From positions 1,871,001 through 1,935,000 of the forward strand of contig NZ_CP016027.1 in NCBI RefSeq assembly GCF_001663815.1: 64,000 bases of DNA, given 5' to 3'. The stretch is from Halothiobacillus diazotrophicus (GTDB lineage: Bacteria > Pseudomonadota > Gammaproteobacteria > Halothiobacillales > Halothiobacillaceae). The notes below the pieces were generated by a model, which was given only the letters and a program-made list of their open reading frames with translations, made no database searches and was not told the origin of the DNA. The translations under genes were made by a program, and so were the position numbers. This document shows, in pieces, positions 21,902-44,776 of this stretch (position 1 is its first letter; every line of letters begins with the position of its first letter).

Positions 21902-24900
21902 TCAGACATCCGGCCGGAGCACCAGCAACGTCTGCCCGGCGGAAACCGGCGTGCCCTGGGCGCAGAGCACCTCGACCACGGTGCCGGCTTCGTCGGCCTC
22001 GATGGCGATTTCCATCTTCATGGCCTCGACCACCACCAGGGCCTGTCCCGCGGCCACGCGATCGCCGGGTTTCGCCGCTACCTGCCACACGCTGCCCGTA
22101 ACCGGTGAGGCCAGCGCCTCGCAGCCTTCCGGCAGATCGATCCCGGCATCTGCGCTTGCCGCATCGCCGGCAGGGTCCGCCTCGTAATGGGCCTGCCCCG
22201 TCGCCACCCAGCGTTCGCGCTCTTCCTCGAAAGCAGCATGACGATGCTGCTGGAAGGCGTCGATGGATGCGCGCTCGGCCTCGATGAACGCGCGGTAGTC
22301 GCGCAGCTTGAGCACGGTTTCCTCGATCTTGAGCTTGAAGCGACCCTGCGGGAATTCCTCACGCATCTTTGCCAGCGCCTCGGAGGAGACCGGGTAGAAG
22401 CGCAGCTGGTCGAAGAAGCGCAGCAGCCACTGCTTGCCGTCGGTGAAATCGGCGGTCTGACGGTAGCGGTTCCACATCTGTACCGTGCGGCCGACGAACT
22501 GGTAGCCGCCCGGCCCTTCCATGCCGTAGACGCAGAGATAGGCGCCGCCGATGCCCACGGCATTTTCGGGGGTCCAGGTACGGGCCGGATTGTACTTGGT
22601 GGTCACCAGGCGATGGCGCGGATCCATCGGCGTGGCGACAGGCGCGCCGAGATAGACGTCGCCCAGCCCCATGACGAGGTAACTGGCGCTGAACAGGATC
22701 TTCTGCACCGCGTCGATGCTGTCCAGTCCATTGATGCGGCGGATGAACTCGATGTTGCTGGGGCACCAGGGCGCGTCCGGACGCACCGACTGCATGTATT
22801 TCTCGATGGCCAGCTGCGTGGACGGATCGTCCCAGGACAAGGGCAGGTGCACGATGCGACTCGGCACTTCCATGTCGTCGATGGCCGGCAGTTCGGCCTC
22901 TGCTTTTCGCAACGCTGCCAGCAGATCGGACTGGGTGATGATCCGGCTGTCGTAGTGCACCTGCAGGGAACGGATGCCGGGCGTGAGATCGAGGATCCCC
23001 GGTACGCGGGCTTCCTGCATCCAGGTCATCAGTGCATGCACCCGGAAACGCAGATCCAGATCCAGCACCAGCGGGCCGTACTCCACCAGCAGATACTTGT
23101 CGCCCGCCTGTCGGTAGCAGACCGCGACCGGCTCGCCCGCATTCTGGGCGTGGGCATGCTCGCTCCGGTAGAGGATCGGCGACGCGGATGCCCCGGCCGT
23201 CCGCGTCGCCGTCACGGTGTGATCGAACGCGGCGAGCGCCGCAATGGCGGCATCCTGTGCCGCTTCCCGCCGATTGGCCTCGGCCACGTCGATACAGTGA
23301 AAGCGGATCGTGTCGCCCGGCTTGAGTTGGCCCATCTTCCACAGTTCGGCCTGCACGATGGTGACCGGGCAGACGAAACCGCCGAGGCTCGGACCGTCCG
23401 GCCCCAGGATCACCGGCATGTCGCCCGTGAAGTCGACGGCGCCGATGGCGTAGGCGTTGTCGTGAATGTTCGAGGGATGCAGGCCCGCCTCGCCGCCATC
23501 CCGGCGCGCCCAGGCCGGTTTCGGGCCGATCAGGCGGACGCCGGTGCGGCTGGAGTTGTAATGCACTTCCCAGTCGGTGGCGAAGAAGGTGGCGATGTCC
23601 TCGTCGGTAAAGAAGTCAGGCGCGCCGTGCGGGCCGTACATCACGGCGATGTTCCAGTGACGCGCGAAGTCGGGCACCAGGCTGGCGGGCGCCGGCGTGC
23701 AGGCGGCGAGATCGGCACCCGGCGCATTCAAACGCAGCACATCGCCGACCCGCAACGTCCGGCCGGCATGACCACCGAACTGACCGAGGGTGAAGGTCGA
23801 CTTGCTGCCCATGTAGTCGGGCACGTCGAACCCGCCCTGCACGGCGAGGTAGGTCCGGCTGCCACCGCCGCCCCCATCCTTGGCGGGAATGCCGCGCAAC
23901 TTGAGCACGGCCCCGGCGGCCACCGCGACGGGTTGGCCGTAGGCAACCGCGACGCCGTCCAGCTCGGCCTTCATCCGGGCACCGGTCAACGCAATCACGG
24001 TATCGGCATTGAAGCGCAGTGTCGGGCCGGTGATGGTGAGTTCCAGCCCGGCCACGCCCTCCGGATTGCCCACGATACGGTTGGCGACGCGGAACGCCAG
24101 CGCATCCATCGGGCCGGAGGGCGGCACGCCGATATCCCAGTAGCCCGTCCGCCCCGGATAATCCTGGATCATGGACTGGGTGCCCGGCGAGAGCACATCG
24201 ATCGTCCGCGGCCTGAAGGCGAATCGGCCGAGATAGCGGGTGTATTGGCGACCCTCGACGAACACATCGTCGGCAATCACCTGCTGCAGATAGTCGAGGT
24301 TGGTCTCGATGCCATAGACGCGGGTGTTCTTCAGGGCGGCGGCGAGATTCGCCAGCGCCTCGGTCCGATCCGCGCCATGGGCAATGATCTTTGCCAGCAT
24401 GGGGTCGTAGTAGGCCGAGACTTCGGTACCGGTCTCGATCCAGCTGTCGATCCGCAGGCGATGGGCGGGCTGGTCGTCCGGGAACTCGACCGCATTCAGC
24501 AGACCGGCGCTCGGCTGGAACTGCTTGCCGGGATCCTCGGCGTACAGGCGCACCTGGACGGCATGGCCCTGTGGCGCGAAAACGTCGCGGTCCAGCGTCG
24601 GCGGTTCGTTCGCCGCCACCTGCAGCATCCACGCCACGAGATCGGTGCCGGTGACCATCTCGGTCACGCCATGCTCCACCTGCAGGCGCGTGTTGACCTC
24701 CAGGAAGTAGAACGCGTCCTCCTTGACGTCGTAGACGAATTCCACCGTACCGGCAGATCGATAGTTCACGGCACGGCCCAGGCGCAACGCGGCCTCATAG
24801 AGCTGCGCCCGCGTGGCGTCGTCCAACCCCGGTGCCGGGGTTTCCTCGATGACCTTCTGATTGCGGCGCTGCACGGAACAGTCTCGCTCGCCGAGGGCAA

Positions 24901-25561
24901 CGACGTTGCCGCGGCCGTCGCCGAAGATCTGTACCTCGATATGCCGGGCGATTTCGACGTACTTCTCGAGGAAGATGCCGCCCTGGCTGAAATTGCTGCG
25001 CGACAACCGCTCCACGGAGTGGAAGGCCTCGCCCAGCTCCGTCGCGTTCCAGCACAGTTGCATGCCGATGCCCCCGCCGCCGGCGGTGCTCTTGAGCATG
25101 ACCGGATAGCCGATCCGCTCGGCCTCGGTCAGGGCATGCGCCGCGTCGTTCAGCAGGCCGCTGCCCGGCAGGAGCGGCACGGCATTGCGCTCGGCCAGTT
25201 CGCGCGCGGTGTGCTTGAGCCCGAAGTCGCACATCTGCTGCGGCGTGGGCCCGATGAAGGCAATACCGTTGGCTTCGCAGGCCTCGGCGAAGGCGGCGTT
25301 CTCGCTCAGGAATCCGTATCCGGGGTGGATGGCCTCGGCACCCGTCGACCGGGCGGCGTCCAGGATCTTGTCCTGGCGCAGATAGCTTTCATTGGCGGGT
25401 GCGGGCCCGAGAAAGATGGCCTCGTCGGCCTCGATGACGTGGCGGGCGTGTCGGTCGGCTTCGGAATAGACCGCCACCGAGGCGATGCCCATCTCTTTGA
25501 GTGTCCGGATGATGCGACAGGCGATCGCACCCCGGTTGGCAATCAGAACCTTCTTGAACAT
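21902..25561 (-). CDS. uca: Biotin-dependent urea/guanidine carboxylase
   Basis: A 1219-residue single-chain carboxylase. An N-terminal biotin carboxylase half ([61 protein letters not shown]) is followed by KipA/AHS2-like and KipI/AHS1-like carboxyltransferase domains ([30 protein letters not shown]) and a C-terminal biotinyl domain with the modified lysine in EAMKME. Enzymes next to the two DUF1989 proteins found here have been shown in the literature to carboxylate guanidine rather than urea, which I infer for this one. It is the last gene of the nitrogen operon. Allophanate hydrolase, the usual partner, is not downstream. The start is MFKK at 25561; it lacks an obvious ribosome site and follows a run of hairpins. 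Confidence 0.9.
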
Positions 25562-25677: not shown

Positions 25678-26319
25678 TCAGGGGTTCCAGACCAGAACCT
25701 CGATCGGGGTCGGATTATACGCGTTGCAGGGGTTGTTGAGCTGAGGGCAGTTGGAAATGAGCACGATCACGTCCATCTTGGCCTCGAGCTCCACGTACTT
25801 GCCGGCGTCCGAAATCCCGTCGGCAAAGGTTAACCCACCCTCGGGCGTCACGGGTACATTCATGAAGAAATTGATGTTGTGCGTGATGTCCCGCTTGCTC
25901 AGGCCCATGTCGGCATGCTCGGCCACCGCCAGCATCCAGCTGTCCCGGCAGGCGTGCATGCACTGGGTATGCAGCCCGTAGCGCACGGTGTTCGATTCGG
26001 TCGCGCAGGCGCCGCCCAGGGTGTCGTGGCGACCGCAGGTATCGGCCACGATCTCCAGCATCGGATTACCTTCGCTGCTGAGCAGCATCGTGCCCGTGGT
26101 GAGGTAGACGTTGCCCTGCTCACGGATCGTGTCGATGGCGCTGTAGCGTTCGGTCGGATTGGACGCGCTGTAGAACAGCGTATCGGCCGCCTGGTTGCCT
26201 GCCAGGTCCAGGATGCGAACGGTCTGGCCCTTGAGCACCGTATGGATGAAATAATCGCCGGCCGGGACGACCTGACGGAAACAACTGTCGTCGGCGTGCA
26301 GCATGCTTTCTCGGATCAT
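25678..26319 (-). CDS. cgdB: Urea carboxylase-associated protein / carboxyguanidine deiminase subunit (DUF1989)
   Basis: A 213-residue cytosolic protein of the DUF1989 family, adjacent to the carboxylase. Characterised homologues form a two-subunit enzyme that deiminates carboxyguanidine to allophanate. Features seen: [34 protein letters not shown], and the metal-ligand-type region [11 protein letters not shown] with [18 protein letters not shown] precedes the ATG. It lies 12 bp after its partner gene, supporting a heteromeric complex. Which of the two is called A or B follows the usual TIGR-type pairing and is not certain. Confidence 0.82.
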
Positions 26320-26331
26320 GATGTGCGCTCC

Positions 26332-27069
26332 TCAGCTACAGCAGGCGCCGGTGTGGCAACCGGCGAGATAGCGTTCGTTGTTCTGGAAACCGCGCTGGTT
26401 TTCCGCGCAGGCGTTCATGCACTCGTCGTCCGCCGTCACCGGATCGGCCTGCCAGAGCTGGTAGATCACCGGCTTTTTCGGATAGGCCGGCGCCGGGTTC
26501 ATCGGATGCGGACAGGTATGGAACACCACCAGCGTATCCATCTCGAACCTCAGGGAGATGGCATCGCCCGCCTGGCTGTTGCCTTCGACGAACTGCAACG
26601 CGCCGTCCTCGGCGACCACCAGCTTGCTGAACAGATTGAGGTTGGCCGCCAGATCCTTCTTGCCCAGCCCGTACTTGGCCAGCTCGACGAGGAAACTGTC
26701 CGTACCGCTCAGGGTCCAGTCGTTGCGCGCTTCCTGATAGGTGCGTTCCTGCCATTTTTCCCGCAGCTTCGCCTTGCTCAGATTTCCGCCCACCGTGTCG
26801 TGCCAGCCGACGGTATCGTCGACGATGGAGCAGAAGATCCGCCCCATGTCCGAGTACAGGCAATGCCCCTGCGTCAACTTGAAGGTATGCTGGCACTTGA
26901 GGGTATCCGGCGCGTTGTAGCGCTCCAGCGGATTTTGCGGGTTGTAGAACAGCATGCCCACGTTCGCACCGCCTTCCTGGTCGATGAGCTTGAGCGTGGT
27001 GCCCTGCTTCATCTCCAGCGACCAGTGCGTGCCGCCCGGCATTCGGTTTTCGTAAAGCATCTTAGCCAT
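26332..27069 (-). CDS. cgdA: Urea carboxylase-associated protein / carboxyguanidine deiminase subunit (DUF1989)
   Basis: A 245-residue DUF1989 paralogue of its downstream neighbour, with MPGGTHWSLEMKQGTTLKL, EGGANVGMLFYNPQNPLERYN and the shared VGWHDTVGG loop. It ends in a cysteine-rich tail (DDECMNACAENQR, GCHTGACCS) that could bind metal. It is inferred to act with the neighbour on the carboxylase product. GAGGAG sits just before the ATG. A strong hairpin separates it from the NikR-like gene upstream. Confidence 0.82.
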   Translation of the reverse strand: MAKMLYENRMPGGTHWSLEMKQGTTLKLIDQEGGANVGMLFYNPQNPLERYNAPDTLKCQHTFKLTQGHCLYSDMGRIFCSIVDDTVGWHDTVGGNLSKAKLREKWQERTYQEARNDWTLSGTDSFLVELAKYGLGKKDLAANLNLFSKLVVAEDGALQFVEGNSQAGDAISLRFEMDTLVVFHTCPHPMNPAPAYPKKPVIYQLWQADPVTADDECMNACAENQRGFQNNERYLAGCHTGACCS

Positions 27070-27151: not shown

Positions 27152-27598
27152 CTACGACAGCGGATGCAGGGGCGGAATCTGCGTCGTGGTGAGCTGCAAG
27201 CGGCCGGTAATCACACCGCCGCAGGTCACCATCTGGTCGGCGATCCACTGCAGTTTCGCGGCCGGCCCCTGCACGAGAATGACCTCCATGGTCTGATTCT
27301 GCATCAAGTGCACATGCAGCGAACTGATCACCTCGTCGATGTACTTGTGCTGCAGATCCGCCAGATCCTTCTGCAGCCCGGGCGTCGAGTGGTCGTACAC
27401 CAGGGTGATGGTGCCGGCCATGACTTCGTTGCCCAACTCGCTCTTGTGGGCGACCAGCTGCCGGTTGATCATTTCGACGATGGCCTGGGAGCGGCTTTCG
27501 AAGCCCCGTTCCGTCACCATGCGATCCAGTTCGCCCAGCAACCGCGCCGGGAGTGAAATGCTGATCCGGCTGATCTGGCCCTTGTTCAGATCATTCAT
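27152..27598 (-). CDS. NikR-family ribbon-helix-helix regulator with altered metal site
   Basis: A 148-residue regulator. An N-terminal ribbon-helix-helix DNA-binding domain (ISRISISLPARLLGELDRM, ESRSQAIVEMIN) is followed by the NikR ACT-type domain. Aligning by eye with E. coli NikR, the nickel ligands H76, H87 and H89 correspond to H84 (LQH), H95 and H97 (LHVH), but the fourth ligand Cys95 is Thr103 (QTMEV). A canonical square-planar nickel site is therefore not possible. It lies inside the nitrogen operon, 13 bp after the glutamine synthetase gene. A NikR-type palindrome in the operon promoter is its likely target. Confidence 0.87.
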   Translation of the reverse strand: MNDLNKGQISRISISLPARLLGELDRMVTERGFESRSQAIVEMINRQLVAHKSELGNEVMAGTITLVYDHSTPGLQKDLADLQHKYIDEVISSLHVHLMQNQTMEVILVQGPAAKLQWIADQMVTCGGVITGRLQLTTTQIPPLHPLS

Positions 27599-27611: not shown

Positions 27612-28997
27612 TCAGAACAGGTGACTGTACCGCTGCACTTCCCAGGCGGAAATGCTCTGGTGGTAATCGGTCCACTCGCGGCGCTTGTAGGTGACGAACT
27701 CGTCGCGCAACTCTTGACCCAGCACCTCGGTGACGAACGGATCGGCCTCGAAGGCCTCCACCGCCGCCAGCAGGTTGTTGGGCAGGAATTCGATACCCCG
27801 GGCCGTGCGCTCCGCTTCGCTCAGTTCGTACAGGTTGTCCTCCTGCGGCTTGCCCGGGTCGAGCCCCTCGCGAATGCCTTCGAGGCCGGCGGCCAGCACC
27901 AGCGTCGCCGCCAAGTACGGGTTGACCGCACCGTCGGCATTGCGCGACTCGAAACGCCCGCCGCCCATGGGCACGCGGATGGAATTGGTGCGGTTGTTGG
28001 AACCGAAGGAATTGAACACCGGCGCCCAGGTGAAGTACGGCATGTCGCCCTGACGAACCAAGCGCTTGTAGCTGTTGACCGTCGGCGCGAGCACCGCGCA
28101 GAGCGCCTTGCCGTGCTTGAGGACGCCCGCGATGAACTGATAACCGAGCTCGGTCAGACCCAGACCCTTCGGATCGTCCTTGGGATCGCAAGCGAACAGG
28201 TTCTTGCCGGACTCGAGATCGTACAGCGACATGTTGAAGTGCGCGCCGTTGCCGGTCTTGTTGGCGAACGGTTTGGGCATGAAGGTCGCGATCAACCCTT
28301 CCTGCTTGGCGTATTCCTTGGCCATCAGGCGCAGGAAGGTGTAGCGGTCGCAGGTGGTCAGCGCGTCGGCATATTTGAAGTCGAACTCGTACTGGCCGTT
28401 GGCGTCTTCGTGGTCGAAGGAATACAGATCCCAGCCCAGGTCGTTGATCGTGGTCGCCATCCGATCCAGCCAGCTGAACTGGTCGAGGAAGCAGCGCGCG
28501 TCGTAGCAGGGCTTGGTCAGGCGGTCGTCCGGATTTGGTACCGCCAGGGATCCGTCCTCGTTCTGCTTGAGCACGAACAGCTCCGCCTCGATGCCGAGGT
28601 TCATGCCAAAGCCCATCTCGGCGGCCTTGGCCAACTGCAGCTTCAGCGCCACGCGGGTGTTGAGCGGGTACGGTTCGCCGTGGAAGGTGTTGTCCGCCGG
28701 CATCCAGGCCATTTCCGGCTGCCACGGCAATTGGATGATGTGGTCGAGATCCGGCACGGAGGCGATCTCGTCGTCGTTGGGCCGCTGGCCGAGGCCATCG
28801 AGCGCATAGCCGGTGTACAGCTCGGAGCCGTGCGCCATGTGCTCGAGGTGGTCGATCGGCACGACCTTGCCCTTCGGCACGCCATGGATGTCGACATAGG
28901 CCCCGAGGCAGTACTTCACGCCCCGGCTCTTGAGCTGCTTCTGGATGGCCTCGATTTCCGGGGTCGATTTCTGTTCAAAGGTACTGTTGGATTTCAT
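27612..28997 (-). CDS. glnT: Type III glutamine synthetase-like ligase (GlnT family)
   Basis: A 461-residue member of the GlnT group of glutamine synthetases, first described in rhizobia. It has [19 protein letters not shown], the Mg/ATP motifs [14 protein letters not shown] and [33 protein letters not shown], and the C-terminal signature [17 protein letters not shown]. It should join ammonia, or possibly an amine such as methylamine, to glutamate. In this operon it could assimilate the ammonia released downstream. The start at 28997 follows AGGGA; a TTG two codons earlier is a less likely alternative. Confidence 0.87.
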
Positions 28998-29020
28998 GAC
29001 CAATCCCTAATGTTCAGTGC

Positions 29021-29824
29021 TTAACTTGCAGCGACCTTGTCGCCATAAATCGACGCGCTGTAGCCATGGGCCAACGGCGGGGCCTCCCGCATCGCCCGGC
29101 GGATCAGCGCCGTCAGGTCCTCAACCATCCAGTCGAACAGCGCGCGCCCGTCGTCGGGCGTGGCTGTCGACGGCGTCCCGGTAACGCCGTTGAGACTGGT
29201 TCGGTTGACGGGGTGGGAAAACACGCAGCCGACGGTGCGATCCGGATCGTCGGCCGTCGCCAGACGATCCTCGCGCACCAGCTCGGGTGCGATGGCCTGC
29301 ATGAGCGCAGTCTCGGCGGCATTGGCGTGCCAGTCTTCGGCATCGGCGAAATGTCGCTCGCGAACGCGCTCACTGATGTGCGCGCTGTTGACGACGGCGA
29401 CCATCAGGTCGTCGTGGTCGGCACGCAGCATTTCGAGTGCACAACGCAGCGGCGCCGCGTTGGTCACGTGACTGTTGACGATGATCAGGCGCTTGACGCC
29501 AGAGGCGCACACCCAGTCACCGATATCCTTGATCACGTCGATCAGGGTCTTGGGCTGGAGGGCGAGGGTACCCGGCCAACGACGCGAATGACCGATCGAA
29601 CAACCGAACGGCAGCGTCGGCAGCAGCAGCGCACCCGCCGCCTCGGCGGCGCGGGCACAGAGCTGATCGGCCAGCTCGGTATCCATGCCGCAGCCCAGAT
29701 GCGGACCGTGCTGCTCGGTGGCACCGACCGGCAGAACTGCCGTGTCGATGCCCTCGGCGACGCACTGACCGACTTCTTCCCAGGTCAGGGCATGCCAACG
29801 CCGAGTGTTCGGTTCGCGCGTCAT
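29021..29824 (-). CDS. Creatininase family amidohydrolase
   Basis: A 267-residue member of the creatininase/FAPy-hydrolase superfamily. The metal-binding residues are evident: LPVGATEQHGPHLG, GCSIGHSRRWPGTL, the glycine-poor variant VNSHVTNAAPL, and AEDWHANAAETALM with the conserved His and Glu. Family members hydrolyse cyclic amides (creatinine to creatine) or formamides. Its place between the importer and the ligase suggests it acts on the imported nitrogen compound or a derivative; the actual substrate is unknown. The ATG overlaps the ATPase stop by one base. Confidence 0.8.
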   Translation of the reverse strand: MTREPNTRRWHALTWEEVGQCVAEGIDTAVLPVGATEQHGPHLGCGMDTELADQLCARAAEAAGALLLPTLPFGCSIGHSRRWPGTLALQPKTLIDVIKDIGDWVCASGVKRLIIVNSHVTNAAPLRCALEMLRADHDDLMVAVVNSAHISERVRERHFADAEDWHANAAETALMQAIAPELVREDRLATADDPDRTVGCVFSHPVNRTSLNGVTGTPSTATPDDGRALFDWMVEDLTALIRRAMREAPPLAHGYSASIYGDKVAAS

Positions 29825-30732
29825 CAGAAAATATCGCTCACGTCGTCGTCGACACGCACCATGCGCATCATGTTCAGATGGTCGCCTTCGGCCTCCTTCT
29901 CCCCCGGCGGATGAATCAGGGCCTCCAGGCGTTTCTTGGTCGCCAGGAATTCCGGCGACAGCTGCTGACCCACGGAACGCGGCTGGGGCACCGGCACCTC
30001 GATGATTTCCTGGACTTCGCCCGGATGGGCCTTCAGCACCAGCACGCGGTCGGCGAGATAGACGGCCTCGTCCAGATCGTGGGTGATGAACAGGATGGTG
30101 ACGTCGATGTTCTTCCAGATCTCCATCAGGTAGGACTGCATCTTGGCGCGCGTCTGGGCATCCAGGGCGCCGAAAGGCTCGTCCATCAGCAGGATGCGCG
30201 GCTGGTTGGCCAGCGCACGGGCGATGGCCACGCGCTGCTTCATGCCGCCGGAGAGCTGATGCGGATAGTGGTCGGCGAACTTGGACAAACCGACGAGATC
30301 GATCCACTGCATGGCCTCCTGCTCCGGCAAACCGCCGCGGCCGGACACCTCGAGCCCGAACATGACGTTCTTCTTCACCGTCAGCCAGGGAAACAGGGTA
30401 TAGCCCTGAAAGACCATGCCGCGATCCGGCCCCGGACCGTCCACCGCCTCCCCGTTCAGCAGGACCTCACCCTCGGTGGCCTGCTCCAGACCGGCGAGTA
30501 TCCGGATCAGGGTGGACTTGCCGCAGCCCGACGGGCCGATGACGCAGACGAATTCGCGCTTGTGCACCTTGAAGTTGATGTCCTTGAGCGCGGTGACCTT
30601 GCCCTGAACGGAGTCGAACTGCTTGTGCAGCCCCTTGACCTCCAGGGTCACCGGGCGCTGCTTGAGGCGCTCGAAGCGGTCGCGGACTTCCGGCGACTGA
30701 TCGAGATAGCTGGGGAGATTCATGTCGTTCAT
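29824..30732 (-). CDS. ABC importer ATPase, nitrate/taurine type
   Basis: A 302-residue ATPase energising the adjacent permease. Walker A is GPSGCGKST (66-74), the signature is LSGGMKQR, Walker B is [12 protein letters not shown], and the switch is [15 protein letters not shown]. An N-terminal extension of about 25 residues and a C-terminal extension of about 50 flank the core, as in the versions linked to urea carboxylase. GGAG precedes the ATG at 30732. Confidence 0.92.
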
Positions 30733-30790: not shown

Positions 30791-31753
30791 TCAGGCCTTG
30801 GCGCCACGCTGCCAGGGGAAGATGCGCCGGCCCAGCCAGGCAAGGAACAAATCGGTGGCGATTCCGATGATCCCGATCATCATGATGGCGGCGTACACGT
30901 TGTCGAAGTTCTTGTAGCGGGCCTGCTGGGTGATGAACCAGGTGATCCCCGAACTCGCGCCGATCATCTCGGCGACGATCAGGTAGGTCCATGCCCAGCC
31001 CAGCAGGATGCGCATGTCGCGGAACAGATCCGGCAACACACCGGGAATCACCACCTTGAACAACAGGGTCAACCGCTTGGCACCCAGGGTCATCGCCGCC
31101 TCAAGCAGCGAGGGATCGAGCTTGCGGGTGGTATTGGCCATCACCAGCACCTGCTGGAAGAACGTGCCGATGAAGATGATCGCGATTTTCGGCGCCTCGT
31201 TGATGCCGAGGATGGCCACCGCCAGCGCCCCGAAGGCCGGCGCGGGGAGATAGCGGAAGAACTCGACGAACGGTTCGGTCAGCCGCCCGAAGAAATCGTA
31301 GGTGCCGGCAAGAATGCCGAGCGGCAGGCCGATCAGGGTCGAGATCACGAAGCCCAGGAAGATGACCGAAATACTGTCGCCGAGACTCTGGTACAGCCAT
31401 TTCTCGTCGCGACGTTGCGGGGGGGTGGTGAAGGCGGTGTAGAAGGCCTCTGCGACCTCATGGGGCGCCGGCAGATACACCGGATTGGCGGGCACGCCCT
31501 GCGGCGGTGCCTTGCCTTCTTTTTCGAGGCGCTCTACCTCACGATGGAACGAGGCTTTCGGCAGCATCATGCCATCGCTGAAGTAACTGACGGATCCCGG
31601 ATTGGTGATCTTCACCATCGGGTGCCAGATGCCCGGTACGTAACTGACCAGACACCAGAGCAACAGCGGAATGCCGAAACTCATCAACGACAGGAACAGG
31701 CGTCGTTTCGGTGACAATTCCCGGCGTACGGCGAACCATGATGAATTCGACAT
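30791..31753 (-). CDS. ABC importer permease, nitrate/taurine type
   Basis: A 320-residue inner-membrane permease with one N-terminal helix (FLSLMSFGIPLLLWCLVSYV), a long hydrophilic insert of roughly 80 residues (about 45-125), and then the standard BPD_transp_1 core (SISVIFLGFVISTLIGLPLG, with the ATPase-contact loop EAAMTLGAKRLTLLFKVVIPG). The large insert is probably periplasmic and is seen in permeases of urea carboxylase regions. It lies between the binding protein and ATPase genes. Confidence 0.9.
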   Translation of the reverse strand: MSNSSWFAVRRELSPKRRLFLSLMSFGIPLLLWCLVSYVPGIWHPMVKITNPGSVSYFSDGMMLPKASFHREVERLEKEGKAPPQGVPANPVYLPAPHEVAEAFYTAFTTPPQRRDEKWLYQSLGDSISVIFLGFVISTLIGLPLGILAGTYDFFGRLTEPFVEFFRYLPAPAFGALAVAILGINEAPKIAIIFIGTFFQQVLVMANTTRKLDPSLLEAAMTLGAKRLTLLFKVVIPGVLPDLFRDMRILLGWAWTYLIVAEMIGASSGITWFITQQARYKNFDNVYAAIMMIGIIGIATDLFLAWLGRRIFPWQRGAKA

Positions 31754-31786: not shown

Positions 31787-31812
31787 CTCAGGGATTACTT
31801 TCAGGGATTACT
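31787..31812. repeat. 13-bp tandem duplication over the binding-protein stop codon
   Basis: TCAGGGATTACTT occurs twice, head to tail, at 31787-31799 and 31800-31812. The right copy contains the stop codon of the binding protein, so the duplication leaves a second, out-of-use copy of the gene end in the intergenic gap. Confidence 0.9.
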
Positions 31813-32791
31813 TCATTTCTTCGATCAGGGACGGATCGATGTAGGAATCGATGTCCTGCGGCTTGGCGTAGACCTTGTTGTCGACGTTGAACTTGTCGAC
31901 GATCGCGCTGGAGCCATAGATCGAGCTGAAGCCGTCACCCTTCTTGAAATGCACCTTGTCTTCCTTGAGGGTCAGGATCTTGGTGCCGTCCACGAACGAC
32001 TGGTATTCCTTCGGCGACACGCCAACGCGCGAGGCCATGATGCGGATCGCATCTTCGTGGGTCTTCGGGTCGTTGATGTAATTGACGACCTTGTACCAGA
32101 CCTTGATCACCTTCTTCCATTCGTCGCGATGCAGGGCCAGACTCTGCGGCGAGACCGCCAGGACGTCATAGATCAGGCCGGGCTCGTCGGCACTGGTGTA
32201 GATCGGCTTGGAGCCCGGAACCATCTTCAGCGCCACGCCGGAGTTCGGCTGCCAGGCGGCGATGGCGGAAACCTGACCGGAGGCCAGAACCTGCGGGGTT
32301 TCGTTGGTCGGCACGTTCACCAGGGTCACGTCCTTGTCGGTCATCCCGGCCTTCTTGAGACCGTTGAGCAGCAGCAGGTGATCGACAAAGCCGATTTCCA
32401 CGCCGATCTTCTTGCCCTTGAGGTCCTTCAGGGAGTTGATGCCCGGGCCGCCAACGACCATGTCGTTGCCGTTGCTGTAGTCGTTGATGAGAATCATGAC
32501 ACTCTTGCCGCCGGTCGCACCGGTCACCAGCGCATCGCCGTTCGTCATGCAAACCGCATCCAGCTTGCCTGCGGCAAAGGCATCCATGGACGGCACGTAG
32601 TCGAACCAGTCGAACTTGACGTCCACACCCTCTTTCTTGAACCACTGTTTCTCGATGGCGATCTGCCATGCAACCCAGCCCGGCCAATCGCTGTACCCGA
32701 TCTTCAGGGGCTCGGCGAGTGCCGTGGCGGACATACTGAGAAAGGCTGCACCAGCAACCATGTTGAAGAACGTTTTGATCGTTTTTTTCAT
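31808..32791 (-). CDS. ABC importer periplasmic substrate-binding protein, urea carboxylase region type
   Basis: A 327-residue SsuA/TauA-like binding protein. The signal peptide ends ATALA (about 26), then [31 protein letters not shown], and [21 protein letters not shown]. Acidic and aromatic pocket residues would suit a cationic ligand such as guanidinium, but this is inference. The start at 32791 is set by GAGGTGGGG just upstream; an ATG eight codons earlier lies within the operator region. It is the first gene of the operon. Confidence 0.9.
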
Positions 32792-32805: not shown

Positions 32806-32833
32806 GTATTACCAAACAACGAAACAGTAATAC
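32806..32833. promoter_or_regulatory. NikR-type operator palindrome at the nitrogen operon start
   Basis: The sequence GTATTA-N16-TAATAC (arms 32806-32811 and 32828-32833; one further matching base inside gives 7-bp arms) has the half-site pattern and the 16-bp spacing of the E. coli NikR operator GTATGA-N16-TCATAC. It covers about -5 to +22 relative to the predicted sigma-54 start and ends 14 bp before the first start codon, so bound protein would block initiation. The operon itself encodes a NikR-like protein. Confidence 0.75.
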
Positions 32834-32928: not shown

Positions 32929-32945
32929 GGCACCGGAACAGTGCA
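32929..32945. promoter_or_regulatory. NtrC site 1 of the nitrogen operon
   Basis: GGCACCGGAACAGTGCA matches the 17-bp NtrC consensus TGCACY-N5-RGTGCA at all but the first base. Its centre is about 109 bp upstream of the predicted sigma-54 start, the classic NtrC distance. Confidence 0.7.
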
Positions 32946-39180: not shown

Positions 39181-39416
39181 TCCCCCGAGCCCGATGTCGT
39201 ATCGATCGGCGCCGTGCGTACGCGCTCGCCTGATCGACCGAACTCGGGCATGGGGGCGATGGCGGGACAGACATCCCGACGCGCCATGACCCCGTGAATG
39301 ATCCCGTGACCCTGCCGCCCCTGCGGTCGGGCATCCCGTTCCGGGTCGGCGTCCGCCCGTCCATCGCCTCAAATCCCAGGCTTAACCGCTTTGATCACGA
39401 TTTTGAGGAAACAACG

Positions 39417-41564
39417 ATGAACATCATCCGTAAAAACCCGAACCGGCCCGGGTCAACCGCGTCCGGACAACAGCCCGATGCGTCCCGGCGTATCTTTCTG
39501 CAGGGACTCGTCGCCGGCGGCGTCATGAGCGCCCTGGGTCTCAATCCGGCCCGCGCCCTCGCCGCCGACGGCCAACCGGCGGCCAACGTGCTGCGTGGCA
39601 CCGAATTTGACCTTGTCATCGAGGAGATGCCGGTCAACTTCACCGGTCAGCCCCGCCCGGCCATGACCATCAACGGCTCGATTCCCGGCCCCACCCTGCG
39701 CTGGCGCGAGGGCGACGTGGTGACGCTGCGGGTCACCAACCGCCTGAAGGTATCCACCTCCCTGCACTGGCACGGCATCATCCTGCCGTTCGAGATGGAC
39801 GGCGTCCCCGGCCTGACCTATGCAGGCATCGCCCCCGGCACCACCTTCACCTACCGCTTCCGCGTCCAGCAATCCGGCACCTACTGGTATCACAGCCATA
39901 GCGGGTTCCAGGAACAGAACGCCGTCTACGGCGCCATCGTGATCGACCCGGCCAACGCCGATCGCGTTGCCTACGACCGGGATCACGTCGTCATGCTCAA
40001 CGACTGGAGCGATGCCAGCCCGGACTTCATCTTCAACCGGCTCAAGACCGCCGACGGCTACTACAACTACGTGAAGCCCGATCTCATGGATCTGATCCGC
40101 CAGTCGGAAAAAATGGGCTTCGGCGCGGCCATCGAGGATCGGCTGATGTGGGACAGGATGCGCATGAGTCCGCGCGACCTGCTGGACGTGACCGGCGCCA
40201 CCTACACCTACCTGATGAACGGCAGCACGCCGGCCGCCGACTGGACCGCGCTGTTCCGGCCCGGCGAGAAAATCCGCCTGCGCTTCATCAACGGCTCCTC
40301 GATGAGCTACTTCGACGTACGCATCCCCGGCCTGAAAATGACCGTGGTCGCCGCCGACGGCCAGGACGTGCATCCGGTCACCGTCGACGAGTTCCGGATC
40401 GGTGTCGCGGAAACCTTTGACGTGATCGTCGAACCCGCCAGCGACCAGGCCTACTGCGTCTTCGCCCAGGCCCTGGACCGCTCCGGCTATGCCCGCGGCA
40501 CGCTCACGCCCCATACCGATCTTCGGGCACCCGTACCGCCCATGGACCCCGTGCCGACCCTGACCATGGCGGATATGGGTATGGACATGAGTGGCATGGA
40601 CATGAGTGGCATGGACATGAGCGGGATGGATATGGGCGGGATGGATATGGGGGGCATGAACAGGCATGGCCAACCCATGAACGGCATGGCCATGGGCGAC
40701 CAGAAATCCATGGCCGGAATGGCGGGCATGAATCACGATCAGAGCGCACATCCGGGCATGGCCAGCATGAACATGGGCGGCCAGTCCAAGCAGGGCATGG
40801 CGATGGACCAGCCGAAACCCATGTCCGGAATGGGCGGCATGAACCACGACCACAACGCACATCCAGGCATGGCCGACATGGACATGAGCGGCCAGTCCAA
40901 GCAGGGCATGGCGATGGGCGCGCAGAAACCCATGTCCGGCATGGCTGGCATGGATCAAGAAGCATCGATGCATCAGCCCATGCCGCACAATCCGATGGAT
41001 CTCCCCGGCCTGCACAATCGCCAACTCAAGGACGGCATGCTGAAGATCGACTGGCACCCGGAGACCGAACACGGGGTTGGGGTCGGCATGAAGGCGCAAC
41101 AGGTCTCCATGAGCCTGAACGATCCGGGGGCGGGGCTGCGGAATAATGGTCGCCGGGTGCTCACCTACGGCGATCTGCGCGGCATCGATGGCCCGATCAG
41201 CCCACGCGAGCCGGAGCGCGGCATCGAACTGCACCTCACCGGCAACATGGAACGGTACATCTGGGGCTTCAACGGCGTCAGTTACCGCGACGCGACACCC
41301 GTCGAACTCAAATACGGCGAAACCGTGCGCGTCGTGCTCATCAACGACACCATGATGAACCATCCCATCCACCTGCATGGGATGTGGAGCGAGCTGGAGA
41401 ACGACCGGGGCGAATATCTCGCGCGCAAACACACCCTGAGCGTCGCGCCCGGCCATGCCATCAGCTACCGCGTGCACGCCAACGCCATCGGCCGCTGGGC
41501 CTACCACTGCCACCTGCTCTACCACATGAACGCTGGCATGTTCCGGGAAGTTCGCGTGGTTTAA
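39417..41564 (+). CDS. copA: Periplasmic multicopper oxidase CopA
   Basis: A 715-residue copper-tolerance oxidase of the PcoA/CopA type. The Tat signal has R24-R25 in SRRIFLQG. Type 2/3 copper ligands are HWHG (117-120) and HSH (159-161); the C-terminal set is HPIHLHG and HCH-LLYH-M (H697, C698, H699, H703, M708). Between domains lies an unusually long Met-rich segment built from repeats (about residues 385-520). The start at 39417 has GAGGAA upstream. copB follows 24 bp later. Confidence 0.95.
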   Translation: MNIIRKNPNRPGSTASGQQPDASRRIFLQGLVAGGVMSALGLNPARALAADGQPAANVLRGTEFDLVIEEMPVNFTGQPRPAMTINGSIPGPTLRWREGDVVTLRVTNRLKVSTSLHWHGIILPFEMDGVPGLTYAGIAPGTTFTYRFRVQQSGTYWYHSHSGFQEQNAVYGAIVIDPANADRVAYDRDHVVMLNDWSDASPDFIFNRLKTADGYYNYVKPDLMDLIRQSEKMGFGAAIEDRLMWDRMRMSPRDLLDVTGATYTYLMNGSTPAADWTALFRPGEKIRLRFINGSSMSYFDVRIPGLKMTVVAADGQDVHPVTVDEFRIGVAETFDVIVEPASDQAYCVFAQALDRSGYARGTLTPHTDLRAPVPPMDPVPTLTMADMGMDMSGMDMSGMDMSGMDMGGMDMGGMNRHGQPMNGMAMGDQKSMAGMAGMNHDQSAHPGMASMNMGGQSKQGMAMDQPKPMSGMGGMNHDHNAHPGMADMDMSGQSKQGMAMGAQKPMSGMAGMDQEASMHQPMPHNPMDLPGLHNRQLKDGMLKIDWHPETEHGVGVGMKAQQVSMSLNDPGAGLRNNGRRVLTYGDLRGIDGPISPREPERGIELHLTGNMERYIWGFNGVSYRDATPVELKYGETVRVVLINDTMMNHPIHLHGMWSELENDRGEYLARKHTLSVAPGHAISYRVHANAIGRWAYHCHLLYHMNAGMFREVRVV
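40581..40655 (+). repeat. Five 15-bp tandem repeats in copA (MDMSG/MDMGG)
   Basis: Five successive 15-bp units (ATGGACATGAGTGGC and variants) encode MDMSG, MDMSG, MDMSG, MDMGG, MDMGG. This is a classic Cu(I)-binding methionine array. Confidence 0.95.
40719..40961 (+). repeat. 111-bp tandem repeats in copA
   Basis: Two full 111-bp (37-codon) units start at 40719 and 40830, and a partial third starts at 40941. Each encodes M-G-G-MNHD, then AHPGMA, QSKQGMAM and KPMSGM. The units are nearly identical at DNA level, so they expanded recently. Confidence 0.9.
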
Positions 41565-41588
41565 CAGAGATCAAACAGGAGCATCATC

Positions 41589-42422
41589 ATGAAAAAAATC
41601 GCACATTTCAGCACGCAGGCCGTCGTACTCGCCCTGGCGGTCTCCGCCGCGGCGGGCTCGGGCACGGCCCAGGCACAAACCGACTACGCTGCCGCCAACG
41701 CGGCGAGCTACCAGCCGCCCTCTTTGGCACAGCAACGGGCCGACGTGAAGAAACTGGCCGAGGAATCCGCGCGCCACGAAACCCACAATCCCCTGATCTA
41801 CAAGGTGATGATCGATCGCCTGGAACGGGATTTCACCCATAAGGGCAGCTTCACCCAGTTCGAAGGCCAGGCTTATGTGGGCACCGACACCGACAAGCTC
41901 TGGCTCAAGGGCGAAGGCCAACGCATGGGCGGTAAAACCCAGGATGCCGACATCGAGGCCTACTACAGCCATGCCATCGCGCCGTTCTGGGATGCGCAGA
42001 TCGGCGCCCGGCACGACTTTTCGGCCGGCACGGTTCCGGGGCGCAACTGGCTCGCGATCGGCGTCCAGGGTCTGGCCCCGTACAAGTTCGATACGGCCGC
42101 CACGGCCTATGTCGGCAATGCGGGACGCACGGCCCTGCGGCTGACCAGCGAGTACGACTTCTTCATCACCCAGCGCCTGATCTTCTGGCCCGGGGTGGAG
42201 CTGAACCTCTACGGCAAGAACGATCCGGAACGCGGCGTGGGCCGGGGCTTGTCCGATTCGCGGGTCGCCCTGCGGCTGCGCTATGAAATCCGCCGAGAGG
42301 TCGCGCCGTACGTCGGTATCCAGTGGACGAACAAGTACGGCCAGACGGCCAGCTACGCCCGGGCGGACGGGGAAGCCACCAGCGACATGCAGGTCATCGC
42401 CGGCCTGCGCCTCTGGTGGTAA
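41589..42422 (+). CDS. copB: Outer-membrane copper-resistance protein CopB
   Basis: A 277-residue PcoB/CopB beta-barrel. A signal peptide ends AQA (about 30). The family core follows: DRLERDFTHKGSFTQFEGQAYVGTDTDKLWLK, then alternating beta-strands, and the terminal GLRLWW. The Met-rich N-terminal region of many CopB proteins is missing here. AGGAG precedes the ATG. It is translated with copA. Confidence 0.93.
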   Translation: MKKIAHFSTQAVVLALAVSAAAGSGTAQAQTDYAAANAASYQPPSLAQQRADVKKLAEESARHETHNPLIYKVMIDRLERDFTHKGSFTQFEGQAYVGTDTDKLWLKGEGQRMGGKTQDADIEAYYSHAIAPFWDAQIGARHDFSAGTVPGRNWLAIGVQGLAPYKFDTAATAYVGNAGRTALRLTSEYDFFITQRLIFWPGVELNLYGKNDPERGVGRGLSDSRVALRLRYEIRREVAPYVGIQWTNKYGQTASYARADGEATSDMQVIAGLRLWW

Positions 42423-42566
42423 CGACAGGAATATCGTCCCGTGGACTGACCGGGCAAACCTCTGCCTGGCCACGGTAACGATCCCAGGGCGGCCGCGAAC
42501 ATCCGGTTCCCGGCCGCATTTCAACACGAACGATGGCCATCACGACGCCATCAGGAGGATATCGAC

Positions 42567-42833
42567 ATGCCTTTTTACGATCATTGGGGAATGGGTGGGT
42601 TCTACGGCGGCTTCGGCCTGATCTTCATGCTGCTCGGCATGGTGCTGATGGTGTTCATCATCCTTGCCATTCTGCGTTTTCTGCTGGGCGGCAGTTCATC
42701 CGCGCCAACCCAGACCCCGCAGGAACGCAGCCGCGCCCTGCACATTCTGGAGGAGCGGTTCGCCCACGGCGAAATCGACGAGGCGGAATACAACGAACGC
42801 CGCCGCATCCTGGAGAGAGGCTATCGATCCTGA
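42567..42833 (+). CDS. SHOCT domain membrane protein
   Basis: An 88-residue protein with one strong membrane helix (LIFMLLGMVLMVFIILAILRFLLGG) and a C-terminal SHOCT domain (ILEERFAHGEIDEAEYNERRRILE). Such proteins are frequent in copper and metal clusters, but their role is not known. AGGAGG lies 8 nt before the ATG. Confidence 0.85.
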   Translation: MPFYDHWGMGGFYGGFGLIFMLLGMVLMVFIILAILRFLLGGSSSAPTQTPQERSRALHILEERFAHGEIDEAEYNERRRILERGYRS

Positions 42834-43024
42834 AGGGAACGGGCCGAACGCATCGAACCGCACGGGAAGCAAAACCGTACCTGACGGAGACACGAACGTG
42901 AAACCGCCCCCGTTTCGGATCGCTGCGCAACGGCTTTTCGACGCCCCCTTCCGACAACCTTTGTCCCGACATCTGCCTCATACACGGTGCGCTGCGACGC
43001 GCGCCGTACACTCAGGAGCAAACC

Positions 43025-44776
43025 ATGTCTCAATTTGATTCGCATGAACATCCAAAGGCACGCGAAGCTGCGGCTTGCGACGATACAGCCGAACCTGCCG
43101 CATACTCGCCGCAGCGCCGACACGCCCTGAAAACGCTGGTCCAGGGCTCGGCGGCCGTGTTCTCCGGCATCGCCCTGGAGGGCTGGACTTCCGCCGCATC
43201 GGCCCAGACGATGGGGTCTGGAATGGGCACCGGGATGGGCCCGGGGATGGGTATGGGCCCAGGCATGATGATGGGCGGCATGATGGGCTCGTCCCGATCG
43301 GCCGTCAGCAAGTCGGGCCTGTTCGACCGGGCGATGCCGATCCCCCCGCAATTGTTCGGCACGACCGATACCCAGGGCGTTCGAACCTACGCGCTGAACG
43401 CCATGGCCGGACAACATACCGAACTGGTTGCCGGCCGGCGCACCCCCACCTGGGGTTACAACGGCGCCTACCTGGGGCCGACGATCCGGACACCCCGAGG
43501 CAAACCGCTGCGCTTCGACATCCGGAACGGGCTCGATCAGTCCACCACCGTCCATTGGCACGGTGCCCACATTCCCGGCAACGTGGACGGCGGACCGCAC
43601 AACCCGATCGCCCCCGGCGATCGGACGAGCATCGCGTTCACGCTGGACCAGCCGGCCGCCTCGTTGTGGTATCACCCGCACCCCAACGGCCGCACCGGTC
43701 CTCAGGTCTATGCCGGACTGGCGGGATTCCTGCTCGTGGACGACGGGCTGGACGCGCGCCTGGACATGCCCCACACCTATGGCGTCGACGATTTCCCCGT
43801 CGTGCTCCAGGACCGCCGCATCAATGAGGCCGGCACGCTCGATTACATGACATCCATGCGGGACATGATGGGCATGAAAGGCGATCGATTTCTGGTCAAT
43901 GGCGTCGAGCAGCCCTATCTTGCGGTACCCGGCCAGTGGATTCGCCTGCGGGTGCTCAACGGCGCCAACGCCCGTGCATTCAACCTGACGTTCTCCGACC
44001 AGTACCCTTTCCACGTCGTGGGCAGCGATGCCGGATTGCTCGAACGCCCGGTCGAACGCACGAATCTCGTCCTGGCCAGCGGCGAACGGGTCGAGATCAT
44101 GCTCGACCTGCGCCGGATGCAGGGCAAGCGACTGGTGTTGCGCAGTGAGTCGGCTGGCGTGATCCCCGACATGAACCGCATGCCCATGGCCGCAGACGGC
44201 TACGACCATGGTCGATTCGATCTCCTCGAACTGCGGGTGGGCGCCCCTGCCGGACAAAGCGGAAAACTACCGGCCCGCATGGCCGAGATACCGACGCTGA
44301 ACGCGGACGGCCCCCATCGGAAAATCATTCTGGATGGCATGGCGATGCGGATGATGCGCGGCATGATGATGGGCGGCGGTACGCCCGAAGGCGCGGCCTC
44401 GGGCCCGGGCGGCATGCGCATGGGCGTGGGCGGACGCGACCTGTTCGCGATCAATGGCACCTTCATGGACATGAAGGTCATCAACGAGCGCGTAAAACTG
44501 GGCAGCACGGAAACCTGGACCGTAACCAACCAGGGCATGATGGCGCATCCCTTCCACATCCACGGCACCTCGTTCCAGATACGCGACCGCGACGGCGCAC
44601 CGCCGCCCGCGCACGAGCGCGGGTGGAAGGACGTGGTATTCGTGCCCAGCGGGCAATCGGTCGAACTGATCGCACGATTCGATCAACCCGCCGGCGACGC
44701 CCACCCCTTCATGTATCACTGCCATATCCTCGAACATGAGGACAATGGCATGATGGGGCAGTTTACCGTGGCTTAA
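43025..44776 (+). CDS. CueO-like multicopper oxidase
   Basis: A 583-residue three-cupredoxin oxidase, probably oxidising Cu(I) in the periplasm. The RR-containing signal (SPQRRHALKTLVQG) is Tat-like but lacks the usual Phe. A Gly-Met stretch (GMGTGMGPGMGMGPGMMMGG) follows it. Copper ligands: TVHWHGAHIPG, WYHPHPNG, HPFHIHG and YHCHILEHEDNGMM. A Met-rich segment (MAMRMMRGMMMGG) sits before the last domain, as in CueO. GGAG precedes the ATG. Distinct from the CopA in the same block. Confidence 0.9.
   Translation: MSQFDSHEHPKAREAAACDDTAEPAAYSPQRRHALKTLVQGSAAVFSGIALEGWTSAASAQTMGSGMGTGMGPGMGMGPGMMMGGMMGSSRSAVSKSGLFDRAMPIPPQLFGTTDTQGVRTYALNAMAGQHTELVAGRRTPTWGYNGAYLGPTIRTPRGKPLRFDIRNGLDQSTTVHWHGAHIPGNVDGGPHNPIAPGDRTSIAFTLDQPAASLWYHPHPNGRTGPQVYAGLAGFLLVDDGLDARLDMPHTYGVDDFPVVLQDRRINEAGTLDYMTSMRDMMGMKGDRFLVNGVEQPYLAVPGQWIRLRVLNGANARAFNLTFSDQYPFHVVGSDAGLLERPVERTNLVLASGERVEIMLDLRRMQGKRLVLRSESAGVIPDMNRMPMAADGYDHGRFDLLELRVGAPAGQSGKLPARMAEIPTLNADGPHRKIILDGMAMRMMRGMMMGGGTPEGAASGPGGMRMGVGGRDLFAINGTFMDMKVINERVKLGSTETWTVTNQGMMAHPFHIHGTSFQIRDRDGAPPPAHERGWKDVVFVPSGQSVELIARFDQPAGDAHPFMYHCHILEHEDNGMMGQFTVA

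Follow-up and report, generated by a model that had tools for sequence, protein, structure and literature searches.

The window analysed here, a stretch of 64,000 nucleotides from Halothiobacillus diazotrophicus, contains a minus-strand operon in which the genes of an ABC transporter precede those of a NikR-like regulator and of a large carboxylase annotated as urea carboxylase (Table 1). In an alignment with K. lactis urea amidolyase the carboxylase has an Asp in place of Asn1330, and Asp at this substrate position marks guanidine carboxylases (PMC12186494); every readable carboxylase among the loci compared below has the same guanidine-type Asp. An allophanate hydrolase gene is present elsewhere in the genome, outside the operon. 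Since an Asp-type carboxylase, the two carboxyguanidine deiminase subunits (UAAP1 and UAAP2; CgdA/B) and allophanate hydrolase are the features of the guanidine carboxylase pathway, the route encoded by the operon is identified as this pathway. Read on the minus strand, the leader consists of a possible NtrC site, a sigma-54 element, a palindrome over the predicted start, a ribosome-binding site and the ATG at 32791.

Table 1. Operon genes and predicted promoter features in the window
Feature	Position	Strand	Remarks
Possible NtrC (enhancer) site TGCACTGTTCCGGTGCC	32929..32945	minus	2 mismatches to TGCACC-N5-GGTGCA; ~100-115 bp upstream of the predicted start
Sigma-54 -24/-12 element TGGCACAGGTTCTGCT	32854-32839	minus	score 8.2/8.7; 1% of shuffles equally good
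Predicted operator palindrome GTATTAC-N14-GTAATAC	32806..32833	.	arms 32806-32812 and 32827-32833; kept in 72/74 promoters (best 80 of 175 loci and the window)
ABC transporter substrate-binding protein (SsuA / ABC_peri_uca type)	31808..32791	minus	first operon gene
ABC transporter permease	30791..31753	minus	
ABC transporter ATPase	29824..30732	minus	
Creatininase-family amidohydrolase	29021..29824	minus	PF02633
Type III glutamine synthetase-like	27612..29003	minus	TIGR03105
NikR-like regulator	27152..27598	minus	RHH_1 + NikR_C
UAAP1, one carboxyguanidine deiminase subunit (CgdA/B)	26332..27069	minus	TIGR03425; enzyme name from PMC12508155
UAAP2, second carboxyguanidine deiminase subunit (CgdA/B)	25678..26319	minus	TIGR03424
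Guanidine carboxylase, annotated urea carboxylase, large biotin carboxylase	21902..25561	minus	Asp at substrate-specifying position

The first-pass annotation had placed a motif GTATTA-N16-TAATAC at 32806-32833, and it is present exactly there, as GTATTACCAAACAACGAAACAGTAATAC; the true arm length is 7 bp, one base beyond that description. In a scan of the 64-kb window this exact match is the sole one even at three mismatches. The 2.91-Mb genome likewise holds a single exact palindrome, and its remaining hits have two mismatches and are not commoner than those of a reversed-pattern control; with one exact site in the whole-genome scan, no wider regulon was found in this genome. The annotation had also likened the motif to the E. 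coli NikR operator. The inverted repeat does have the 27-28 bp geometry of NikR operators; it resembles the NikR consensus of deltaproteobacteria, GTGTTAC-N13/14-GTAACAC, more than that of enterobacteria, GTATGAT-N13/14-ATCATAC (PMC545781). The position of the sigma-54 element puts the predicted start at about 32828, with the palindrome spanning about -5 to +23, which upholds the claimed overlap of the two in the window; orthologous promoters have the same arrangement. No sigma-70 promoter was found in the window's leader. The genome has one copy of rpoN, and ntrC is found above cut-off at G000:C1:1868972-1870375.

Orthologous loci were retrieved by regulator sequence, and the best 80 of 175 were compared; with the window, 74 promoter regions from alpha-, beta- and gammaproteobacteria were available. 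Among these best 80 loci the closest named relative is a Halothiobacillus MAG with a 95% identical regulator, the gene order of the operon is well kept, and the regulator is linked to the guanidine carboxylase pathway and its transporter in nearly all of those whose flanks are long enough. The annotation had proposed, as a check, to look for the palindrome in front of orthologous operons with the regulator gene, and the idea passed this check strongly: GTATTA-N16-TAATAC with at most two mismatches is found in 72 of the 74 promoters at spacing 16, against at most 21 of 74 at each other spacing from 10 to 22, in a sample that is biased in that the promoters were chosen via the regulator sequence and are kin by descent. 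The consensus in these promoters, from the best 80 of 175 loci and the window, is GTAWTAC-N14-GTAATAC, and identity between promoters is 90% in the arms, 38% in the spacer and 27% in the upstream stretch. A scan of 1.42 Mb of locus sequence located 75 sites in front of genes of the cluster and two at other places. The exact site occurs in 21 of 30 regulator-bearing genomes, in 20 of these at a single place; the palindrome occurs about once per genome. A chance motif is ruled out by the spacing control, the shuffles and the reversed-pattern control. Where the operon is broken up, each unit has its own palindrome (three units in G192, two in L108), and a second palindrome precedes UAAP1 in L042, L046, L132 and L133. 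In L133 the cluster contains three palindromes (5338 and 8162), one of them upstream of the carboxylase gene, a place that is occupied in other genomes by a guanidine-II riboswitch.

The promoter element is kept together with the palindrome. A -24/-12 element TGGCAY-N5-TTGCW is present in all 73 site-bearing promoters from the best 80 of 175 loci and the window, and in these the palindrome begins between -7 and +9 relative to the predicted sigma-54 start. NtrC-like sites at spacing 5 with at most two mismatches occur in 24 of the 74 regions, compared with at most eight at other spacings, a modest enrichment. A repressor seated over an NtrC/sigma-54 promoter, by which nitrogen shortage and substrate would be joined at one site as the annotation had proposed, is well supported by sequence comparison. 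Palindrome starts fall into two clusters, at -7 to -2 or at +2 to +9, and never at -1 to +1 or at +5 to +6 (promoters L032-L111); the two clusters perhaps correspond to two ways of blocking.

The NikR-like protein and the guanidine-I (ykkC) riboswitch are exchanged for one another on this operon. No guanidine-I riboswitch (RF00442) was found in the window, including the leader, or in the rest of its genome. UAAP1 scores above cut-off in 29 genomes of a 369-genome class sample: 19 with the riboswitch only, eight with the NikR-like protein only, one with both in separate operons and one with neither, the last because its contig ends before the regulator's place; the palindrome is present there. 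The corresponding Fisher value (p = 2e-5) is a guide and not a probability, since the genomes are related by descent and the loci were gathered by regulator sequence. Among 50 regulator genomes, a riboswitch is found in one of the 31 that have the carboxylase genes inside the operon and in 17 of the 19 that have them elsewhere, where one of the two exceptions, L090, is a truncated contig and should not count. The riboswitch immediately precedes the separate carboxylase operon in L041, L050, L051, L054, L060, L079, L089 and L102, and the NikR-type operon of L097 shows a weak guanidine-II match before its carboxylase gene. Among the NikR-type promoters, 74 in all from the best 80 of 175 loci and the window, L052 alone lacks a recognizable palindrome; a guanidine-I riboswitch (100 bits) occupies that place, behind a sigma-54 element. 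Riboswitch operons mostly carry sigma-54 elements as well, about 35-70 nt before the aptamer; with sigma-54 promoters on both kinds of operon, the promoter logic of nitrogen shortage plus guanidine appears constant and the sensing device varies. The exchange points to guanidine, rather than creatinine or a metal, as the substrate signal that the annotation had left more general.

Three loci deserve mention in their own right. The Gallionellales operon of L052 (4560-4950) has kept its NikR-like gene with the guanidine-I riboswitch at the promoter, and is possibly an intermediate in the exchange of regulators. The L091 genome (G406:C4:102180 and 107667) alone combines an intact carboxylase operon of NikR type with guanidine-I riboswitches elsewhere. 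In L146 (G363), which belongs to the window's family, UAAP1/2 and the carboxylase are under a guanidine-I riboswitch and the transporter is dissimilar (~31% identity), indicating that the regulator changed along with the transporter genes.

The same repressor, operator and sigma-54 promoter might instead respond to methylguanidine, creatinine or a product of it, urea, carboxyguanidine, allophanate or glutamine. Such a ligand would suit the frequent presence of creatininase-family and glutamine synthetase-like enzymes in the operon, and also those several betaproteobacteria that have the transporter, creatininase and synthetase under NikR-type control and the carboxylase unit under a riboswitch; a riboswitch and a NikR-like protein on separate units of one cell could mean two ligands. 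Yet about eleven minimal palindrome operons (L036, L038, L039, L047, L048, L056, L068, L071, L077, L104 and L111) comprise the transporter, regulator, CgdA/B and carboxylase and lack both creatininase and synthetase, and in G119 the same full gene set, creatininase included, is under two guanidine-I riboswitches with neither a NikR-like gene nor a palindrome. These creatininase-free operons and the creatininase-containing riboswitch operon weaken creatinine as the main signal, and we regard a ligand other than guanidine as unlikely. Guanidine is favoured by the minimal operons and by the exchanged riboswitch class, which is guanidine-specific where assayed (PMC12508155).

It is far less probable that a different regulator binds the palindrome, or that the NikR-like protein is an activator. 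Palindromic sites do occur for some activators; the geometry, however, is that of NikR operators (PMC545781), and the palindrome tracks the NikR-like gene and is absent where the gene is absent. It also lies on the start point or downstream of it, an unusual place for activators of sigma-54 promoters. Repression through the palindrome by the NikR-like protein is the reading that we prefer.

The regulator itself has the ribbon-helix-helix and NikR_C domains of NikR (PF01402, E 2.6e-05; PF08753, E 1.2e-26) and is named NikR by NCBIfam NF003381, which it matches above cut-off. Its predicted fold, from a single-chain model that bears on the fold and not on the ligand pocket, matches chain B of 6mrj, H. 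pylori NikR with DNA, at a TM score of 0.82 by query, and its best PDB matches are all NikR. In a phylogeny it falls in a clade of 68 proteins apart from 21 true NikRs (support 100/98). The His3Cys nickel site (His76-His87-His89-Cys95) is complete in 21 of the 21 true NikRs versus none of the 68 clade members. In the clade Thr, Met, Leu, Ile or Ser stands in place of the Cys, and most members have Tyr, Phe, Cys, Ser or Arg instead of His76. In the window's protein H84, H95 and H97 are kept and the Cys is replaced by Thr103, giving His-His-His-Thr. Nickel was rejected as the signal on this loss of the ligand site, and the protein, called NikR-like in the annotation, is so in fold and operator and not in signal; nor was control of nickel uptake or of nickel enzymes found. 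Two of the ligand histidines are still mostly His in the clade (62/68 and 57/68), so that the proteins may have some metal role. Arg3, Thr5 and Thr7, which we take to be the DNA-reading positions of E. coli NikR and which were placed on the clade by alignment, correspond to Arg-Ser-Ser in 68 of 68 members, with Ser where true NikRs have Thr or Gly. An ordinary nickel-responsive NikR that couples the operon to nickel supply is hardly credible, for although the family name, the fold and operator geometry and three of four ligands in the window's protein speak for it, the Cys ligand is missing throughout the clade, His76 is substituted in most members and both other histidines are Asn in some, the operon has no nickel enzyme and the carboxylase route is biotin-dependent, one genome (G084) has a true NikR beside the NikR-like protein, and TIGR02793 (nikR) is missed widely, at 80.7 versus 175.45 bits. 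In nine clade members position 84 (E. coli His76) is Cys alongside His-His-Met at the other ligand positions, possibly another kind of metal site in a subset of the clade.

We propose that a nickel-independent, NikR-family ribbon-helix-helix protein represses its own operon through GTATTAC-N14-GTAATAC over the start of an NtrC/sigma-54 promoter and that guanidine releases it, a reading to which we assign a probability of roughly three in four. Sequence comparison shows the operator and promoter in their arrangement, the link to the regulator gene, the lost nickel site and the riboswitch exchange; binding, repression, the ligand and activation by NtrC are inferred. DNA binding by the protein would most likely be metal-free. 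Without guanidine, the bound protein would keep the promoter from melting or from being cleared; when guanidine or an immediate pathway intermediate binds the NikR_C domain, the protein would leave the DNA, and transcription would require nitrogen shortage, through NtrC with sigma-54, plus the substrate. Such a protein switch at the DNA level would do the job of the guanidine-I riboswitch on the same operon in relatives. The NikR-like protein is a strong candidate for a guanidine-sensing protein switch, which would be the first one known. It seems reasonably probable, more broadly, that a widespread nickel-independent NikR subfamily constitutes the first guanidine-sensing transcription factor and stands in for guanidine-I riboswitches, in places perhaps also for guanidine-II ones, on sigma-54 guanidine operons, protein and RNA sensors having been exchanged repeatedly.

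Compared with the NikRs of E. coli, H. pylori and Pyrococcus, the present system shares the domain composition, the predicted fold and the operator type, an inverted repeat of 27-28 bp with 7-bp arms, and differs in the lost His3Cys site, in the apparent regulation of guanidine use and in the operator over a sigma-54 start. Repressor sites that overlap sigma-54 promoters are known, such as those of ArgR at nitrogen-regulated transport promoters; these resemble the proposed arrangement in the ligand-controlled repression of a nitrogen-regulated promoter, and ArgR belongs to another protein family with another ligand. In the open-access literature searched, no NikR was found at a sigma-54 promoter, the search returning only H. 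pylori NikR repressing flgR, a sigma-54 activator gene, which is weak evidence of novelty. Guanidine-I riboswitches on guanidine carboxylase operons share the genes, the place in the operon and the kind of promoter, but are RNA aptamers that act after initiation, whereas the protein and its operator would act at initiation. HisR and similar factors are also protein regulators in a role taken by RNA devices in other lineages, though HisR concerns histidine metabolism and is of another family (PMC9413887). A 2025 review named riboswitches as the only known guanidine receptors besides transporters and enzymes, and regarded guanidine-binding transcription factors as a matter for later work (PMC12186494). 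The present analysis names a candidate for such a factor, together with its operator and dozens of genomes for tests. A metal-sensor fold apparently now serves a different signal, and protein and RNA devices have traded places on one operon; biosensors would benefit from a small guanidine-sensing protein.

Elsewhere in the window, at 39294-44776, two Met-rich multicopper-oxidase-like genes with a CopB-like gene between them resemble a copper-resistance cluster.
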